A stretch of DNA of 34,976 bases, taken from the NCBI GenBank assembly GCA_947627155.1, contig CANQUX010000017.1:1-34976 (forward strand), read 5' to 3'. A model generated the notes under the pieces. That model was not told the DNA's origin. It did not search any database and worked only from the letters and a program-made list of their open reading frames with translations. The stretch is from an uncultured Alphaproteobacteria bacterium. Its GTDB lineage: Bacteria; Pseudomonadota; Alphaproteobacteria; CAAHEQ01; UBA3637. Both the position numbers and the translations under genes were made by a program. This document shows positions 14,700-26,398 of the stretch, in pieces (the first letter of the stretch is position 1; the number at the start of each line of letters is the position of its first letter).

Positions 14700-15482
14700 A
14701 TGTCGTTTGATTCAACCCTTTTATTGGCGTTTGTGCAAAGTGCCACCGAATTTTTGCCCGTGAGTTCGTCGGGGCATTTAATTTTAATGGAAAAACTTAA
14801 TTTTTCACATCAAACTTTGTTGATGGATATTTCTTTGCATTTGGGAACGTTAATTGCCGTAATGGCTTTTTTTGCCAAAGATATTTGTCACTTGCTCATC
14901 GGGTTTTGGCATAAAGGTACCGAGCAGAAGCTGGGGTTCGAGTTAATTATTGCCACGCTTCCGGCGTTGATTGTCGGCTTTTTTTTGAAAGACATTGTGG
15001 AAACAACCTTGCGTTCGCCGTTGGTGATTGCTTTCACGGCAGTTTTTTACGGTATTTTACTGTGGATTGTCGATAAAAAAGCGCCTAAAACAAAAACAAT
15101 CGGGCAAATGACCTATCGCAACGCTCTTTATATCGGATTAGCGCAGGCATTGGCTTTAATTCCGGGCACCAGTCGATCGGGCATTACCATGACATGCGCC
15201 CGTTTTTTGGGTTATTCCCGCACCGACAGTGCCAAATTTTCCATGTTGATGTCAATTCCCGTTATTTTTTGCGGCGCGGCATATATGTTATTAACGGCTT
15301 ATCTCAATCAATCGTTATCGGTTGAAAGTTTATCACAAATCGGCGCGGGTATTTTGGCGGCGGCCGTTTTCGGATTGGTTGCCGTGTGGTTTTTAATGCG
15401 TTGGTTGAAAACGGCGTCTTTTGCCGTGTTTGCCGTTTATCGCATTGTGTTGGGGCTTGTGTTGTTTTATTTGTTTTGGTAA
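14700..15482 (+). CDS. uppP: Undecaprenyl-diphosphatase
   Basis: 260 residues, a polytopic membrane protein of the BacA/UppP family. It dephosphorylates undecaprenyl diphosphate to recycle the lipid carrier for peptidoglycan and surface polysaccharides. Catalytic motifs are visible: TEFLPVSSSGHL with the glutamate at residue 17, and PGTSRSG with the arginine at 159. The usual QG before the first motif is QSA here. GAGAG serves as a weak ribosome site. The stop abuts the stop of the convergent MBOAT gene with no spacer. Confidence 0.95.
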   Translation: MSFDSTLLLAFVQSATEFLPVSSSGHLILMEKLNFSHQTLLMDISLHLGTLIAVMAFFAKDICHLLIGFWHKGTEQKLGFELIIATLPALIVGFFLKDIVETTLRSPLVIAFTAVFYGILLWIVDKKAPKTKTIGQMTYRNALYIGLAQALALIPGTSRSGITMTCARFLGYSRTDSAKFSMLMSIPVIFCGAAYMLLTAYLNQSLSVESLSQIGAGILAAAVFGLVAVWFLMRWLKTASFAVFAVYRIVLGLVLFYLFW

Positions 15483-16892
15483 TTAAAACCGAAAATAAAT
15501 AAAGGCACTGTATCCGCTGCCCGTTAAAATGACAATCACAAGAAACAACAGGAAAATTAGCCAAAGATTGATGAAAAAGTGTGTCCAAAAATTCCGATAG
15601 CGTAAAACAGATTTAAACACGCCCGTTGAAGCGATGACGGCAAAGGCAATAATGAACCACAACAGCCCTTGCACATAATAAGAAACGCCGAACGCTTGTT
15701 TATAGGGAAGAAGTCCGAACATTAACCGAATGTAATCATAAGCTTGCGAGAGTGTTTCCGCCCGAAAGATAACCCAGCCGAGCAGTAAGGCGATTAAAGC
15801 GTAACACCGGCCGATAACGGCATAAAAAACGGCGGGAATGTGCGTGATATGCAGAGAATGCGCCGCGGCTTTTAACAGTTTTTCCAAAATCACGAAAAAG
15901 CCTTGCCATAATCCCCACACAACCATGGTCCAAGCGGCGCCGTGCCAAAAGCCGGTTAAGCAAAACACCACCGCCAGATTGAAAACGGTTCGCAACAAGC
16001 CGCATTTATTGCCGCCCAAGGGAATATATACATACGATTTAAACCAGCTTGACAATGAAATATGCCACCGACGCCAAAATTCGGAAACCGATTTGGAAAG
16101 ATAAGGATAATTAAAGTTTTCCAAAAAGCGAAAACCGAACATACGCCCCAATCCGATGGCCATATCGGAATAGCCCGAAAAATCGAAATAAATTTGTAAG
16201 GCATATAAAAACGCGCCGAGCCACGCAATGGCAGGTGTTAAAGACGAAACGGAACCGGCAAAAATAACATCAACGCTATGCCCCACCATATCGGCAATAA
16301 TCACTTTTTTGGCAAGGCCGATTAAAAAGCGGCGTAACCCCTGATAAACCTTTGCCACGGAGTGACGCCGACCGGTCAATTGTTTGGCAACGGTATCATA
16401 GCGCACAATCGGGCCGGCAATCAGTTGCGGAAAACTGCTGACGTACAGCGCCAGTGCGGAAAAACTTTTTTGCGCATCGGCCTTTTGGCGATAAACATCA
16501 ATCACATAAGAAAGCAATTGAAACACATAAAAAGAAATGCCGAGCGGCAGGGCAATATAAAGCAACGGCAGACTTTGTTTTGTTAAATCGTTGAAGGAGG
16601 CAAGAGCAAAATCACCGTATTTGAAAAAGAAAAAAATGCCTAAAATGTAAAAACAGCTTGCCGTACATATCATTTTGGCTTTTTGAGGGTAACGCGTTAT
16701 GCCTTTGGCGGCATAAAACCCGATGACAATAAAACACAGCAACACCAGTAAATGCGCAGGTCGCCCCCACCCGTAAAACAACAGCGAGGCCAAAAGCAGA
16801 AACACATTGCGAAAGCGATTGGGTAATAGGTAATAAATTCCGACAACAATCGGCAGAAAATAACAAAGAAACGTGAATGATGAAAAAACCAT
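15483..16892 (-). CDS. MBOAT O-acyltransferase (AlgI/PatA-like)
   Basis: 469 residues with about ten or more membrane helices. MBOAT proteins of this type take acyl (usually acetyl) groups from the cytoplasm and move them across the membrane for O-acylation of alginate, peptidoglycan or other polymers. Signature segments are FSGYSDMAIGLGRMFGF, FWRRWHISLSSW (His 277) and the catalytic-His motif GFWHGAAWTM (His 317). The N-terminus MVFSSFTFLCYFLP is typical. GAGGT lies 8 bases upstream. The ATG immediately follows the stop of the AlgJ-like gene, so it is translated from the same phase-variable operon. The acceptor polymer is not known. Confidence 0.93.
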   Translation of the reverse strand: MVFSSFTFLCYFLPIVVGIYYLLPNRFRNVFLLLASLLFYGWGRPAHLLVLLCFIVIGFYAAKGITRYPQKAKMICTASCFYILGIFFFFKYGDFALASFNDLTKQSLPLLYIALPLGISFYVFQLLSYVIDVYRQKADAQKSFSALALYVSSFPQLIAGPIVRYDTVAKQLTGRRHSVAKVYQGLRRFLIGLAKKVIIADMVGHSVDVIFAGSVSSLTPAIAWLGAFLYALQIYFDFSGYSDMAIGLGRMFGFRFLENFNYPYLSKSVSEFWRRWHISLSSWFKSYVYIPLGGNKCGLLRTVFNLAVVFCLTGFWHGAAWTMVVWGLWQGFFVILEKLLKAAAHSLHITHIPAVFYAVIGRCYALIALLLGWVIFRAETLSQAYDYIRLMFGLLPYKQAFGVSYYVQGLLWFIIAFAVIASTGVFKSVLRYRNFWTHFFINLWLIFLLFLVIVILTGSGYSAFIYFRF

Positions 16893-18134
16893 TTAAAAAT
16901 ACCTCATTAACTCTTCCAATTTTTGATCGGAAATGCTTAAAATTAAAATATCAATTTTATCATCTGCCAATTCTTTTTCACGCTCCGGCCAATGAATACC
17001 CCACGGCGTACCTGTTCCGTTTTCATTGAATCGATGCATTCTGAAATGCGAAAAGGTGGGCATTAAAAACGGAAGCAGATAATAAGAAAAGCTGTCACCG
17101 ATGATATAAGCCCGATACGGCGCGCCTTTTTCATAATCCGAAAACCGAAACTGCTTATCCCGATGAATTTTTAAAGCGGCTTTATCTTTATAAATATAAT
17201 GTTGATATTGCGTTTCGCCGTAATCAATGCCGTTTAAGTAATTAGACCCGTTATAAAAATACGGTTTTTGCGTATATTGATAAGGCGACCACACTTTTTT
17301 TGTTAATTCAATATGATAATCATCGGGCGTGACGGCACGAATGTCTTTAAAATCTTTTTGTATGGCTTTCATTAACAGCTGATAGGCTTCAAACGCTCCG
17401 TCTTCCGACCAATGCGTGTCGGTTTTGTAAATTAACGGAAATTGACTGCGCGCTTGAGAAATAAGGTGTTTTTCAATCGGCACCACGGTTATTATGTCTT
17501 GCACAGCCGTTTCAACCTGTTCCGCAACGGAGGGATTGTTTTCTCTTAAAATATAATCAGGCATCCATTTGTGATAAATGCGAGAGACTTCCGGCGGAAT
17601 AATTAAATAGACTTTAATGTTATGCTCTTTGGCAAAATCGGCCATTTTTTGAACGTTTTTTCGAAGGAGGCTGATTTGTTTGGGTGTGAATAAATAAGAG
17701 TTTTGATAAACGGATAAAATCGGCAAATTACGGGAAGCGTTTAGACTCGAAAAGATAAAATTTTCTTTACCGATGATTTGCCTTTGTGTTCCCAAATCGC
17801 GCCCCAAACCCGATTCGAAATAAAAATCAATCAGCTCAGGTCGTTTCGGCAAATGATCGGAGATGTATTTTTCAAGCTTTTCGCTTTGCGTCCAAAAATA
17901 ATGCGGAAATTTTTCTAAATTGCGCCGTTCACGCACACTTTTCGTTTGTGTTGTATCAGGCGTAAGACCAATGGTTAATAAACCGCATAAAGGAAAAAGA
18001 ATAAACAAGCAAAGAAGGAATGTATGTATGTATGTATGTATGTATGTATGTATGTATGTATGTAGTCTTTGTTGGCGAGCATTTTTTTCGGCTTTAAAAA
18101 GGGGGATAAATTTTTCATTTGGTTTCCTATGCAT
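16893..18134 (-). CDS. AlgJ/AlgX-like SGNH O-acetyltransferase, phase-variable
   Basis: 413 residues in the open frame. A membrane anchor (about residues 38-57) precedes a periplasmic SGNH-hydrolase-like domain with the AlgJ/AlgX catalytic set: Asp239 and His241 in KTDTHWSEDGA, Ser348 in IIGDSFSYY. These proteins attach acetyl groups delivered by an MBOAT partner, here encoded directly downstream. Residues 25-38 are YIHT repeats coded by a tetranucleotide tract, so slippage changes frame. The ATG at 18134 sits at the predicted transcription start with no ribosome site. A second ATG at 18118 has AGGA 6 bases upstream but lies in a different frame and reaches a stop soon after the repeat in this copy. 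The expression state is therefore uncertain. Family sure; acceptor unknown. Confidence 0.9.
   Translation of the reverse strand: MHRKPNEKFIPLFKAEKNARQQRLHTYIHTYIHTYIHTFLLCLFILFPLCGLLTIGLTPDTTQTKSVRERRNLEKFPHYFWTQSEKLEKYISDHLPKRPELIDFYFESGLGRDLGTQRQIIGKENFIFSSLNASRNLPILSVYQNSYLFTPKQISLLRKNVQKMADFAKEHNIKVYLIIPPEVSRIYHKWMPDYILRENNPSVAEQVETAVQDIITVVPIEKHLISQARSQFPLIYKTDTHWSEDGAFEAYQLLMKAIQKDFKDIRAVTPDDYHIELTKKVWSPYQYTQKPYFYNGSNYLNGIDYGETQYQHYIYKDKAALKIHRDKQFRFSDYEKGAPYRAYIIGDSFSYYLLPFLMPTFSHFRMHRFNENGTGTPWGIHWPEREKELADDKIDILILSISDQKLEELMRYF
18020..18064 (-). repeat. Tetranucleotide repeat, about 11 copies (ATGT/TACA)
   Basis: 45 bases with perfect 4-base periodicity (11.25 units) inside the 5' coding part of the AlgJ-like gene. 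The unit is not a multiple of three, so each gain or loss shifts the frame. This is the classic structure of a slipped-strand contingency locus. Confidence 0.97.
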
Positions 18135-18141
18135 ACAATTT

Positions 18142-18170
18142 ACTATATTCGTTCCTCACAAAAATGTCAA
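18142..18170 (-). promoter_or_regulatory. Strong promoter of the AlgJ-like/MBOAT operon
   Basis: Minus strand TTGACA (18165-18170), exactly 17 bases, TATAGT (18142-18147). The expected transcription start is about 18135, directly before or at the ATG at 18134. That makes this ATG leaderless, and the ATG at 18118 the first one with a Shine-Dalgarno site. Confidence 0.85.
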
Positions 18171-18200
18171 TAAAAAAATAAGAGCCGAAAAAATATAAAA

Positions 18201-18230
18201 AAAAGCACCGCTTTCGCAGTGCTTTTTTTA
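18201..18230 (-). terminator. Terminator of the 10-codon Cys-peptide gene
   Basis: Read on the minus strand: GCACTGC, GAAA tetraloop, GCGGTGC, with flanking A and T runs that extend the stem and give the U tract. It starts 10 bases after the stop of the tiny ORF. It could act on both strands, but no plus-strand gene ends here. Confidence 0.88.
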
Positions 18231-18240
18231 TGCAAAGAAT

Positions 18241-18273
18241 TTATTTCTTTGTTCCACATCCGCAACCCGGCAT
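18241..18273 (-). CDS. 10-residue Cys-containing peptide MPGCGCGTKK
   Basis: Eleven codons including stop. AAGGAGGGG (18281-18289) is placed 7 bases before the ATG, one of the best ribosome sites in the window, and a strong terminator follows 10 bases after the stop. An in-frame upstream ATG would give 18 residues, but the ribosome site lies inside that extension. The CGCG motif with a basic end could bind metal or act as a cysteine-sensing leader for the downstream AlgJ-like operon, although that operon has its own promoter past the terminator. I do not recognise the peptide. The layout makes translation likely; function is unknown. Confidence 0.6.
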   Translation of the reverse strand: MPGCGCGTKK

Positions 18274-18318
18274 AATGCTCCCCCTCCTTTCGAACATATT
18301 ATCGTATCCCACAAACTC

Positions 18319-18347
18319 TATGTAAGAATTAAAATAACACTTGTCAA
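18319..18347 (-). promoter_or_regulatory. Possible promoter of the tiny Cys-peptide gene
   Basis: Minus strand TTGACA (18342-18347), 17 bases, TACATA (18319-18324). The -35 is perfect, the -10 weak. Its -35 overlaps the -35 of the divergent lipoprotein promoter. Confidence 0.5.
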
Positions 18348-18369
18348 GACGATTTGAATTTGTTATATT
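18341..18369 (+). promoter_or_regulatory. Promoter of the lipoprotein hydrolase gene (leaderless start)
   Basis: TTGTCA (18341-18346), 17 bases, TATATT (18364-18369). The predicted transcription start is 18376-18377, coinciding with the ATG at 18377, and no ribosome site is present, so the mRNA is probably leaderless. Confidence 0.75.
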
Positions 18370-18376
18370 AACGTCT

Positions 18377-19132
18377 ATGAAAAAATTATTTGCTTTTTTA
18401 GGCCTCTTTTTTTTAACGGCTTGCGCCACGCAAAACCCGTTGACGGATTTTCGATTTCAAACGCAACCGGCTCCGCCGTATATTTTGGCAAGCTGGTATC
18501 GCATTAACGCTCCCGGCGAGCCCGTTCGCATTTATATTGAGGGCGACGGTGCCGCTTTTAATGCCGACGGTACTCCTTCGGATAATCCCACACCGCAAGA
18601 AGCGTTTTGGCGCAAAGTTGCGGCTGATGATCCGCACGCCAACACGGCCTATTTGGGGCGTCCCTGTCAATATATGCAAGCGGGGGCCTGTTCGCAAGTT
18701 GATTGGACAACCGGTCGGTTTTCACCGCAAATTGTGCGCAGTATGAATAGTGCCGTAACGGCGCTCATGAAAAAAGCACAAACCGATCAGGCGGTGTTAA
18801 TCGGCTATTCGGGCGGTGCGCAAATTGCCGGATTGATTGCCGTTCATGATCCGCATGTGGTGAAAGTGATTACCGTTGCCGGTGTGTTGGATACCGCCGC
18901 ATGGACGGCTTATCATCATGACACGCCCTTAAAAGAATCGCTGAATTTAAAAGATTATCAAATTGAATTTTTAAAAATTCCGCAAATTCATTACGTCGGT
19001 GAAAAAGATACCGTTGTTCCGCCCGCGCTCACAAAAGCTTTCGTGCAAGAGGCAGCGCCGATTGTAACCGTTCGAAAAGCAACGCATAATGACGGGTTTG
19101 AGTCAATTTTAAACGAATTATATCAACAATAG
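18377..19132 (+). CDS. Alpha/beta-hydrolase lipoprotein
   Basis: 251 residues from the ATG at 18377. A type II signal peptide ends in the lipobox FLTAC with the lipidated cysteine at residue 16, so the protein sits on a membrane facing the periplasm. The hydrolase nucleophile motif is GYSGG (Ser145). The likely acid is Asp211 (GEKDTVVP) and the histidine His237 (THNDG), giving a complete catalytic triad. Substrate unknown; esterase or lipase is the family default. A longer in-frame start at 18341 lies within the promoter and is rejected. The ELM1-family gene follows after 9 bases, so they form an operon. Confidence 0.85.
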   Translation: MKKLFAFLGLFFLTACATQNPLTDFRFQTQPAPPYILASWYRINAPGEPVRIYIEGDGAAFNADGTPSDNPTPQEAFWRKVAADDPHANTAYLGRPCQYMQAGACSQVDWTTGRFSPQIVRSMNSAVTALMKKAQTDQAVLIGYSGGAQIAGLIAVHDPHVVKVITVAGVLDTAAWTAYHHDTPLKESLNLKDYQIEFLKIPQIHYVGEKDTVVPPALTKAFVQEAAPIVTVRKATHNDGFESILNELYQQ

Positions 19133-19141
19133 GATAAAAAA

Positions 19142-20110
19142 ATGCTTGTGTGGATTTTGGCAGATGATCGCGCCGGAAACGTTAATCAGTTGTTGGGCAT
19201 TGCCGAAGCATTAGGCCGTTCTTTCGAACGCAAAAATATTGCTTATACAAAAGCCGTTAAATTGCCGAACTTTTTGCGAGACGGGACCTTAATCGGACTT
19301 ACGAAAGAGTCAAAACAAGCCGTGCAAACAACCGTTTATCCCGATGTGGTGCTCAGTGCCGGCCGGCGCGCCTTTCCCGTAGCGAGATACATACAAAAAA
19401 AATCAAAAGGCAAAACAAAAGTTGTGCAATTGATGAATCCGGGCATCAGAGGGTTTAAAAGCGCCGATTTAATTGTGTTGCCCGCGCATGATTTATATAA
19501 AGGAAAGGCCGAAAACGTGATGATTGTTGACGGATCACCGCATCGCGTGACGGAAAAACGCTTACGGGAAGAACGCCAAAAATGGTTGCCCGTTTTTGCC
19601 GATTATCCCGCGCCGCGTTTATCGTTAATTATCGGCGGGGCTACCAAAAACAAGCCCTTTACCGTGGCCGATGCCGAAAAAATTGTTGCGGCGGTGCAAC
19701 AATTGCATCCGGCTTCCGTTTTAATAACAACATCAAGGCGAACACCGGCTGACGTGGTGGCGTTTTTAAAAACAGCCTTTCCGCCGAAAACAACTTTCTT
19801 TTATGCTTTCGGTGATAAGGGTGAAAATCCGTATTTCGGATTATTATCTTGCGCCGACTTGATTGTGGTAACGGGCGATTCGATGTCTATGTGTTCGGAA
19901 TGTTGCGCCGGAAAGGTTCCCGTTTTTATTTTTGCGCCCGCTGAAATGATGAGCGTGAAACATCGGCGTTTTCATCAAACTCTTTTCCGAAACGGCTATG
20001 CGTTACCCCTCGGCAGCGCTTTAAAACCCGTTAAAGGCGGATTTAATCCCTCCCTTGCGATTGCCGAACGCATTTTAAGTCTTTTGAAGGTGTCGGACGC
20101 AAAAAAATAA
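19142..20110 (+). CDS. ELM1-family protein (DUF1022), glycosyltransferase-like
   Basis: 322 residues. Matches the bacterial family related to plant mitochondrial fission protein ELM1: N-terminal WILADDRAGNVNQLLGIAEA, PDVVLSAGRRAFPVARYI, LSLIIGGATKNKPF and VVTGDSMSMCSECCAG. The two-domain layout with a GGATK loop and a late GDSxSM motif resembles GT-B glycosyltransferases. A glycosyltransferase role in the envelope is inference, not shown for this family in bacteria to my knowledge. AGGA lies 6 bases upstream. Second gene of the lipoprotein operon. Confidence 0.85.
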   Translation: MLVWILADDRAGNVNQLLGIAEALGRSFERKNIAYTKAVKLPNFLRDGTLIGLTKESKQAVQTTVYPDVVLSAGRRAFPVARYIQKKSKGKTKVVQLMNPGIRGFKSADLIVLPAHDLYKGKAENVMIVDGSPHRVTEKRLREERQKWLPVFADYPAPRLSLIIGGATKNKPFTVADAEKIVAAVQQLHPASVLITTSRRTPADVVAFLKTAFPPKTTFFYAFGDKGENPYFGLLSCADLIVVTGDSMSMCSECCAGKVPVFIFAPAEMMSVKHRRFHQTLFRNGYALPLGSALKPVKGGFNPSLAIAERILSLLKVSDAKK

Positions 20111-24347: not shown

Positions 24348-25290
24348 AGGGCTGTCACATCTTTCAACCGGTGCGCTTTGGATTGTTTTTGCCTGTGTTG
24401 TCGGCTTGATTTTGTTTTTGGACTTGTTTGTTTTTCATAAAAAATCGGAAGAGCCGTCTTTAAAAAGCACGTTTCATATTTGTTTGGGATATTTATGCGT
24501 TGCCTTACTTTTCGGCTTGTTTGTCATTTTTGAAAAAGGCCGGGAAACAGGGTTTTTATATTATACCGGCTATTTGGTGGAATTCAGTTTGTCCATGGAT
24601 AACATTTTTGTTATGTCGCTTATTTTTACGGGGCTGCATGTGGCATCGGCTTATCAACATCGGGTTTTATTCTGGGGCGTTTTGGGTGCCATTATTATGC
24701 GTGCCGTCATGATTTTACTCGGCGCCGGACTTGTCAGCTCGTTTCACTGGATTTTATATTTTTTCTCGGCGTTTTTAATTTATACCGGTGTGAAAATGCT
24801 TTTGGAAAAGAAAGAGGAAAGAAACGATTTATCCGAAAACAAAGTGATTACTTTTTTAAAGCGTTTTATGCATGTAACGCCCGCTTTTCACGGAGAACAC
24901 TTTTTTGTGAAAGAAAAAGGCAAATGGGCAGCAACACCGCTCTTTTTTGCATTGATGAGCATTGAGTTGATGGATGTTGTTTTTGCCGTTGACAGTATTC
25001 CTGCCATTTTCTTGATTACGCAAGATGTTTTTGTGATTTATACCAGTAATATTTTTGCCATTTTGGGCTTGCGGTCGTTATACTTTTTATTGGCGGCAGC
25101 CGTTAATCGATTTACCTATTTAAAACACGCCTTATCATTGGTGCTTATTTTTATCGGTTTAAAAATATTTTTACCCCATATCGGTATCACCGTTTCGAAT
25201 TTAATGTCGTTATGTGTCACATTTTCACTGTTGGCAATGGGAATCATTGCCTCACTTTATTTCACAAAAAAACCTTTTCTGAAAAGATAA
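24340..25290 (+). CDS. TerC/Alx family membrane protein
   Basis: 316 residues from the ATG at 24340 (AAAGGA upstream); a start at 24310 lies inside ampD. Nine or so membrane helices. The family motifs with acidic membrane residues are EFSLSMDNIFVMSLIF and ELMDVVFAVDSIPAIFLIT. TerC/Alx proteins export manganese or other metals and protect secreted metalloproteins. Its last 34 bases overlap the end of the convergent kinase gene. Confidence 0.93.
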   Translation: MFEGLSHLSTGALWIVFACVVGLILFLDLFVFHKKSEEPSLKSTFHICLGYLCVALLFGLFVIFEKGRETGFLYYTGYLVEFSLSMDNIFVMSLIFTGLHVASAYQHRVLFWGVLGAIIMRAVMILLGAGLVSSFHWILYFFSAFLIYTGVKMLLEKKEERNDLSENKVITFLKRFMHVTPAFHGEHFFVKEKGKWAATPLFFALMSIELMDVVFAVDSIPAIFLITQDVFVIYTSNIFAILGLRSLYFLLAAAVNRFTYLKHALSLVLIFIGLKIFLPHIGITVSNLMSLCVTFSLLAMGIIASLYFTKKPFLKR

Positions 25291-25658
25291 GTTAAAATTT
25301 GATACATTAATCTGTATCGCAGAATAATCCAATAACATTTTATTAAAAAATTTAATTTTGTGGATTTTCTGCCCAAAAAACCGTCTATTCTTTTTAAGAA
25401 AAAAGCATGTAAACCCCATATCCATTCTTTTTCCGTTAAATGAAACTGTTGTTGACAAAGTGAAAGCCATTTAATGAAATGAAAATAGGAGATTATGACA
25501 AAAGGAGAACGATAAATTAAACAAAAAATATATCGCATTAAATCTTCACTGATACATCCGAAACGAACTTCTTCAAAATCTATAAAAGCAACGCTTTGAT
25601 GGTTTCTGAATAAAATATTATTATTGTGAAAATCCCCATGAATAACAGCATTTTGCAA
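25257..25658 (-). pseudogene. C-terminal half of the phase-OFF LicA/APH-like kinase
   Basis: The frame is open continuously from the repeat (25751) to the stop at 25257; the TTG at 25658 is only a possible restart. It carries the catalytic Brenner loop HGDFHNNNILF and the metal-binding IDFEE of the aminoglycoside phosphotransferase/choline kinase fold. This frame differs from that of the N-terminal half, and the two meet within the GGAA/TTCC tract. Removing one repeat unit, or adding two, joins them into one protein of about 349 residues. As it stands the half lacks a proper start, so the kinase is OFF. The AT-richness exceeds that of the flanking genes, suggesting horizontal origin. Confidence 0.85.
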
Positions 25659-25707
25659 AATACCTTCTTTTGAAACAGATATTTTATTAAAATTTTTTAA
25701 AATTCGA

Positions 25708-26310
25708 TTATAAAGACATCTTCCTAAAAAGTTTTTTGCTTTCCAGAGAGAGGAAGGAAGGAAGGAAGGAAGGAAGGAAGGAAGGAAGGAAGGAAGGAAG
25801 AGAAGAAGAAAAAAGTTTATTTTCTATATTTTGAATTTTTTCTTGTATTAAATTATATTCCCGACTCCAATCGATTGCCGGAATAATAATATTTTTATCT
25901 TTCCATTCCGTTTGTAAAAAACAAGCATACGCCTTTAAAATTTTTTGAAAATCCTTATATTTTATTTGACAAAATCGTAAAGATTTCCCCGGCAGATATG
26001 TTAAAATAAATCCATATTGATGATTATATAAAAAAGAGGATTTTCCCTGAATGCGTATCGGTTTTACGGTTAAAATTTTTGAATTTTTTTCCAGTGTTTC
26101 ATAAACGCGGAACAATTGTTCAATACTTTCCGGTTTATGATTCACACAAAGCTTAATCAAAAATTTTTCATCGATTGTTTTAACAACAAAATTAAGGGAT
26201 CCGGATCCGCGCTTTAATTTCTGATGCTCGATAATCGGTTTTTGCAAAAGTGTTTCCTGCAAAAATCGGATAAAGTCAGAAGTATTAAAATTTTTAAAAA
26301 CCGGATTCAT
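25708..26310 (-). CDS. N-terminal half of LicA/APH-like kinase, truncated by repeat frameshift
   Basis: The ATG at 26310 has AAAGG about 7 bases upstream and sits about 15 bases after the predicted transcription start; the longer ORF start at 26382 lies upstream of the promoter. The N-lobe is recognisable: glycine-rich RGSGSLNFVVKT, then FLIKLC with the ATP lysine, and YGFILTYLPGKSLRF as hinge. The frame runs through the tetranucleotide tract as LPSF repeats and stops at 25708, before the catalytic loop. Relatives include choline kinase LicA, which drives phosphorylcholine decoration of LPS in Haemophilus and is switched by CAAT repeats. The true substrate here is unknown. Confidence 0.85.
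   Translation of the reverse strand: MNPVFKNFNTSDFIRFLQETLLQKPIIEHQKLKRGSGSLNFVVKTIDEKFLIKLCVNHKPESIEQLFRVYETLEKNSKILTVKPIRIQGKSSFLYNHQYGFILTYLPGKSLRFCQIKYKDFQKILKAYACFLQTEWKDKNIIIPAIDWSREYNLIQEKIQNIENKLFSSSLPSFLPSFLPSFLPSFLSLESKKLFRKMSL
25751..25800 (-). repeat. Tetranucleotide repeat, about 12 copies (GGAA/TTCC)
   Basis: 50 bases of perfect 4-base periodicity (12.5 units) inside the kinase gene. Change by one unit shifts the frame. The count in this sequence leaves the gene frameshifted. Confidence 0.97.
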
Positions 26311-26331
26311 TTTAAACCTTTCAAGAATACT

Positions 26332-26358
26332 ATTATATGTTTTTGGAGAAAAAATCAA
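26332..26358 (-). promoter_or_regulatory. Promoter of the phase-variable kinase
   Basis: Minus strand TATAAT (26332-26337), a perfect -10, with TTGATT (26353-26358) 15 bases upstream, a slightly short spacing. Confidence 0.6.
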
Positions 26359-26369
26359 GTAAATTATGC

Positions 26370-26398
26370 TTGCTTTTAACAAAAAAATAAATTATGCT
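26370..26398 (+). promoter_or_regulatory. Promoter of the uracil-DNA glycosylase gene
   Basis: TTGCTT (26370-26375), 17 bases, TATGCT (26393-26398), divergent from the kinase promoter. Confidence 0.5.

Follow-up and report, generated by a model that had tools for sequence, protein, structure and literature searches.

A putative O-acylation gene pair

The DNA analyzed here, called the window, is a stretch of 34,976 nucleotides that forms contig 17 of a 1.56 Mb alphaproteobacterial genome (32 contigs, 95.8% complete). On its minus strand lie two adjoining genes. The first (16893..18134) encodes an SGNH-fold O-acyltransferase of the AlgX/AlgJ/PatB-like type, with an N-terminal hydrophobic segment and the motifs DTHWS and GDSF. 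The protein scores above the cut-off against PF16822, the AlgX acetyltransferase domain (2.9e-12), and among solved structures it matches PatB1 (5v8d, 4.8e-7) and, weakly, AlgJ (4o8v, 0.015). Both motifs align to those of PatB1, GDSF at low score only. Since an AlphaFold2 model of the protein (six sequences) has a mean pLDDT of 36.7, the fold assignment is based on the sequence matches to PatB1 and AlgJ.

The second gene (15483..16892) encodes an MBOAT membrane O-acyltransferase partner of the AlgI/PatA/DltB-like type (PF03062, 2.1e-30; 3.9e-42 against the DltB model, which is below the cut-off). The features expected of the AlgJ/AlgX/PatB family, namely a profile match, DxHW and GDS motifs, and an MBOAT neighbor, are all present, and the two proteins look like an O-acylation pair of the AlgI/AlgJ or PatA/PatB type. 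The SGNH stop codon (16893) abuts the MBOAT ATG (16892). An initial annotation had proposed on these grounds that the partner follows the control of the first gene; the abutting stop and start are there, but the effect may be weaker than was thought because the MBOAT gene carries a GAGG of its own about 9 nt before the start and is perhaps not fully dependent on SGNH translation.

Upstream of the pair, a small transcription unit ends in an intrinsic terminator (18198..18229, minus strand) with a 14-pair stem and a T-rich tail. It lies about 27 nt before the −35 box of the SGNH gene, which argues against an SGNH transcript arriving from upstream, and a message of that origin was rejected.

Also on the minus strand, at 18241-18273 of the window, is an open reading frame (ORF) of ten residues, MPGCGCGTKK, with a very strong Shine-Dalgarno (SD) sequence (GAAAGGAGGGG) and its own promoter and terminator. 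It occurs in 11 of the 31 genomes searched (nine of the ten in the genus, plus two from other genera), and its third-position variation is synonymous. This is probably a real Cys-Gly micro-protein, as far as the pattern of substitutions indicates.

Promoter, start codons, and repeat array

The SGNH gene is preceded by a sigma-70-type promoter, TTGACA-17-TATAGT (18142..18170, minus strand), with the −35 at 18170-18165, the −10 at 18147-18142, and a spacer of 17 nt. It matches the consensus at 11 of 12 positions and is the top-scoring promoter site across 15400-19200. The −10 ends 7 nt upstream of the first start codon, ATG1 (18132..18134), the A of which is a purine within the usual window for a predicted transcription start. 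ATG1 is therefore a predicted leaderless start, with a leader of 0-1 nt. A second start, ATG2 (18116..18118), lies 16 nt from ATG1 in a different frame and has an AGGA Shine-Dalgarno sequence (18125..18128) 6 nt before it. The promoter and this second, SD-led start were both described in the initial annotation, and both are present as it had them. A third ATG (18080..18082), placed by the frame script in the frame of ATG2, has no good SD.

All of these starts precede a perfect (TACA)11 array (18020..18063, minus strand), which encodes YIHT repeats in the N-terminal tail of the protein and is open in all three frames. Tandem Repeats Finder (TRF) places it at 18020-18064 with 100% matches and a score of 90, confirming the 11 units originally counted. 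It is thus a long, perfect, non-triplet repeat inside an ORF. In the sampled part of the genome, made up of 40 stretches and the window (832 kb, or 53% of the genome), tetranucleotide arrays of at least four units number four in total, and each has 10-13 units; a perfect 11-unit tetranucleotide is therefore not a chance occurrence.

A script that varied the number of units from 0 to 15 and asked which start reads into the SGNH gene gave a simple cycle. ATG1 reads through at 2, 5, 8, 11, and 14 units, being the sole in-frame start at 11; ATG2 reads through at 0, 3, 6, 9, 12, and 15, joined at 12 by the in-frame ATG at 18082; and neither does so at 1, 4, 7, 10, and 13. The arithmetic first put forward for this locus (ATG1 alone at 11 units, ATG2 at 12, neither at 10 or 13) was reproduced exactly. 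The third frame meets TAG and TGA stops directly past ATG1 and holds no start codon there, so the OFF state would be truly off. An internal start past the array was rejected, the only one legible in the sequence being an SD-less TTG within the membrane segment.

Other repeat arrays in the genome

Besides TACA, the sampled 53% of the genome holds three tetranucleotide arrays of 10-13 units, all in glycan-type genes. In the window itself, an APH-family kinase-like gene (25257-26391, minus strand) carries TCCT x12 in mid-gene (25751-25805), which splits it into two frames; it is OFF as assembled, and ON is predicted at 8, 11, and 14 units. A close homologue in another genome (G007, L058) lacks the array and is intact. 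A GT10 fucosyltransferase-like gene (L078:2832-3980, minus strand) has (TTAC)13 at its N-terminal membrane segment and, as assembled, is in frame and ON. The third, a CgtA-like/GT2-like glycosyltransferase gene (L066:12580-13473), has two out-of-frame ATGs 7 nt apart, both of which feed a (TTTA)10 array; only the second is in frame, and it is poorly spaced from the SD. Judged by its sequence, this would be the second dual-start contingency gene of the genome, so that the arrangement appears to recur, here with the starts at unequal distances from one SD. The four array genes form a set of putative Haemophilus-style glycan contingency loci.

Other tracts of possible phase-variable character are a poly-G12 in an ORF of 365 codons that has no Pfam match (L099:3476-3487) and a poly-C13 inside another AlgJ-like ORF (L013:721-733). 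A further candidate phase-variable gene lies at a contig end (L027, G002:C30), where the contig breaks off in a TACA array soon after a signal-peptide-like start.

Homologous copies and selection

Close homologues of the SGNH gene are found in three sister MAGs (L024, L025, and L026), which together hold five further copies; the genomes compared are MAGs throughout. L024 has a single copy with 2 units, a length that could be an assembly artifact. In both L025 and L026 the SGNH gene is present as a tandem pair, of which copy 1 carries the array (9 and 13 units, respectively) and copy 2 does not. A comparison of repeat number among related genomes thus found it to differ, with 2, 9, 11, and 13 units across four species-level MAGs. 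The 13-unit copy of L026 is OFF, as had been predicted for that length. The 9-unit copy of L025 is also OFF; it has lost the dual-frame arrangement, and its ATGs lie in one frame.

The remaining copies are open. The locked copy of L024 reads from ATG1 only. In the array-less copy 2 of L025, also locked, ATG2 is open and is the sole well-placed start. Two extra in-frame ATGs are found there: one is internal and lacks an SD, and the other, 1-2 nt after the −10, is discounted since it would lie upstream of any plausible transcript start. Copy 2 of L026 is open from ATG1, although an upstream vestigial MBOAT ATG could serve instead. The tandem pairs consist of an array-bearing copy that is OFF and an array-less copy that is open, suggesting a switchable and a constant version of the enzyme.

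The dN/dS of the coding parts is 0.16-0.33 for every pair, which indicates purifying selection, so there is no obvious sign that the OFF copies are pseudogenes. The changes assigned to the branch of L024 number 18 synonymous and 13 nonsynonymous, a long way from the neutral ratio of about 1:3. The private changes of L026 copy 1, at 4 synonymous and 21 nonsynonymous, show a nonsynonymous excess, and this copy may be under relaxed or diversifying selection.

It might be argued that the array is no switch at all but a stable stretch coding for a YIHT tail of variable length. This is highly improbable: perfect tetranucleotides of 9-13 units shift the frame and do not alter length alone, and of the three SGNH copies with long arrays, two are out of frame, with their coding parts still under selection.

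The short stretch between ATG2 and the array offers a way to tell the two frames apart. Of its 11 variable sites, seven occupy the third codon position when read from ATG1; the synonymous share in that frame is 4.25 of 10, compared to 1 of 10 when read from ATG2, with about 2 expected for each. With 10-11 sites only, this comparison tilts toward constraint on the ATG1 frame rather than the ATG2 frame. Each start is the only well-placed and open one in a different locked relative that is under selection (ATG1 in L024, ATG2 in L025 copy 2), which indicates that both of them are usable. These relatives are the best available evidence on this point, and they support the central proposal of the initial annotation, a translational switch with two out-of-frame starts.

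A predicted leaderless start

The geometry of the promoter and ATG1 has been kept. TTGACA is retained in all six homologous copies, and its distance to ATG1 is 35-36 nt in five of them, including second copies with different upstream surroundings. A pattern search for the promoter-ATG1 cassette found no other locus in ten genomes of the genus.

Leaderless genes in general also appear to be real in this genome, judging by where −10 boxes fall in the sampled 832 kb. Of 147 SD-less genes, 10 have a −10 whose end lies 6-9 nt from the ATG, compared to 2.8 expected, and none of 300 shuffles reached this number; the neighboring 4-nt distance bins hold 1-2 SD-less genes each. Among genes with an SD the figure is 0 of 491, where the SD sequence itself leaves little room for such a box. 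The kept geometry, the genome-wide excess of −10 boxes, and the third-position bias in the ATG1 frame together support the reading of ATG1 as leaderless.

A second leaderless candidate is a divergent lipoprotein gene (MKKLFAFLGLFFLTAC; window 18341-18377, plus strand, with its ATG at 18377), which has the promoter TTGTCA-17-TATATT ending 7 nt before the ATG. This gene is one of the 10 in 147, and its −10 and spacing look conserved in the three sister MAGs.

These observations bear on the simplest alternative, an ordinary two-state switch in which only ATG2 is real, ATG1 is a chance ATG beside the promoter, and the 11-unit copy in the window is OFF. The recognizable SD does belong to ATG2, and OFF alleles are common here (copy 1 of L025, copy 1 of L026, and the kinase gene in the window). 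Such a switch would, however, leave L024 with its 2 units permanently OFF, yet the branch leading to it shows purifying selection; the substitutions before the array favor the ATG1 frame over the ATG2 frame, and the spacing between promoter and ATG1 is conserved. A two-state switch is therefore considered unlikely.

The proposed switch

The explanation preferred here, which is likely to be correct, is a slipped-strand contingency switch on a two-gene O-acylation operon with a leaderless and an SD-led start. Transcription would begin at ATG1 or within about 1 nt of it, giving an mRNA with a 5'-terminal AUG followed, 16 nt on and in another frame, by the SD-led AUG of ATG2. Slippage in the hypermutable TACA array, presumed to occur in vivo, would pick the frame that enters the SGNH acyltransferase: by sequence, ATG1 at 11 units, ATG2 at 12, and none at 10 or 13. 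The MBOAT partner would be coupled through the abutting stop and start and through transcript polarity. The product would probably toggle O-acylation of a surface or cell-wall polysaccharide among cells, and the switch would work beside the other phase-variable glycan genes of the same genome.

How much each start would yield can be judged from what is known of leaderless initiation. Caulobacter translates its leaderless, non-SD, and SD mRNAs with about equal efficiency (PMC4117421). In E. coli, the output of 5'-terminal AUGs ranges from weak up to equal to that of the SD-led gene, and a 5'-AUG can affect initiation at a downstream SD-led start (Beck et al. 2016, PMC4965119); given this effect, ATG1 and ATG2 may interact rather than act independently. 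The parity seen in Caulobacter makes a graded output from the two starts, as foreseen in the initial annotation, uncertain.

Two versions of the switch can be distinguished on this point. In one, the starts are of similar strength, and the array would offer a pair of ON states plus OFF rather than a gradation; the gene would be ON in two of three frames, the second start serving to raise the chance of ON. The equal efficiency of the Caulobacter mRNA classes (PMC4117421) fits this version, as do those E. coli 5'-AUG ORFs that match their downstream SD gene, whereas some others in E. coli show low expression (PMC4965119). Its prospects fall just short of even. The other version, put forward more tentatively, is a three-level switch in which the array would set one protein to be OFF, made by SD-led initiation, or made by leaderless initiation of the 70S type. 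If it is true, the ON level could also track conditions that favor leaderless translation.

In either version, the dual-start switch would place leaderless and SD-led initiation under one random control and so constitute a natural experiment. With one protein made from both initiation modes, a difference in output would be directly testable, and relatives locked on a single start, ATG1 in one and ATG2 in another, allow an unusually clean comparison.

Comparison with known systems

Most work on repeat-driven phase variation concerns host-adapted pathogens, Haemophilus and Neisseria among them. The small set of putative contingency genes with 10-13-unit tetranucleotides described here belongs to an alphaproteobacterium of presumed gut source. 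Its MBOAT and SGNH proteins are encoded in one operon with DxHW and GDS motifs, as in AlgI/AlgJ and PatA/PatB; to our knowledge, the characterized pairs of these types are not repeat-controlled. Among the open-access papers searched, none was found to link leaderless mRNA with slipped-strand mispairing or to describe a leaderless alternative start in a phase-variable switch.

The phase-variable lipooligosaccharide (LOS) O-acetyltransferase of Haemophilus, oafA, is controlled by GCAA repeats (PMC6479036, PMC2651432). It shares with the present locus the phase-variable O-acetylation of a surface glycan, here predicted from sequence, but its array is mid-gene, whereas the SGNH and MBOAT genes have dual starts and an array at the 5' end. 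The E. coli 5'-AUG mRNAs have a short mRNA start with a 5'-terminal AUG and an SD-led AUG, both capable of initiation, as would the message proposed here. Their two AUGs serve separate ORFs and involve no repeat (PMC4965119), whereas in the SGNH gene the repeat would pick which AUG enters the same protein.

The closest known system is licA (lic1A) of Haemophilus, in which three starts (alpha, beta, and gamma) lie upstream of an array of CAAT repeats (PMC2992063). In both loci a tetranucleotide array lies a short way into the gene, with several starts before it, and both are glycan-modification operons with overlapping or abutting downstream genes (PMC2992063). The likeness to multi-start control of licA noted at the outset holds in that out-of-frame starts precede the array and each reads through at some unit number. 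The genes are not homologous, and the SGNH gene differs in having only two usable frames, the third being closed, and one start that is predicted to be leaderless and lies at the promoter.
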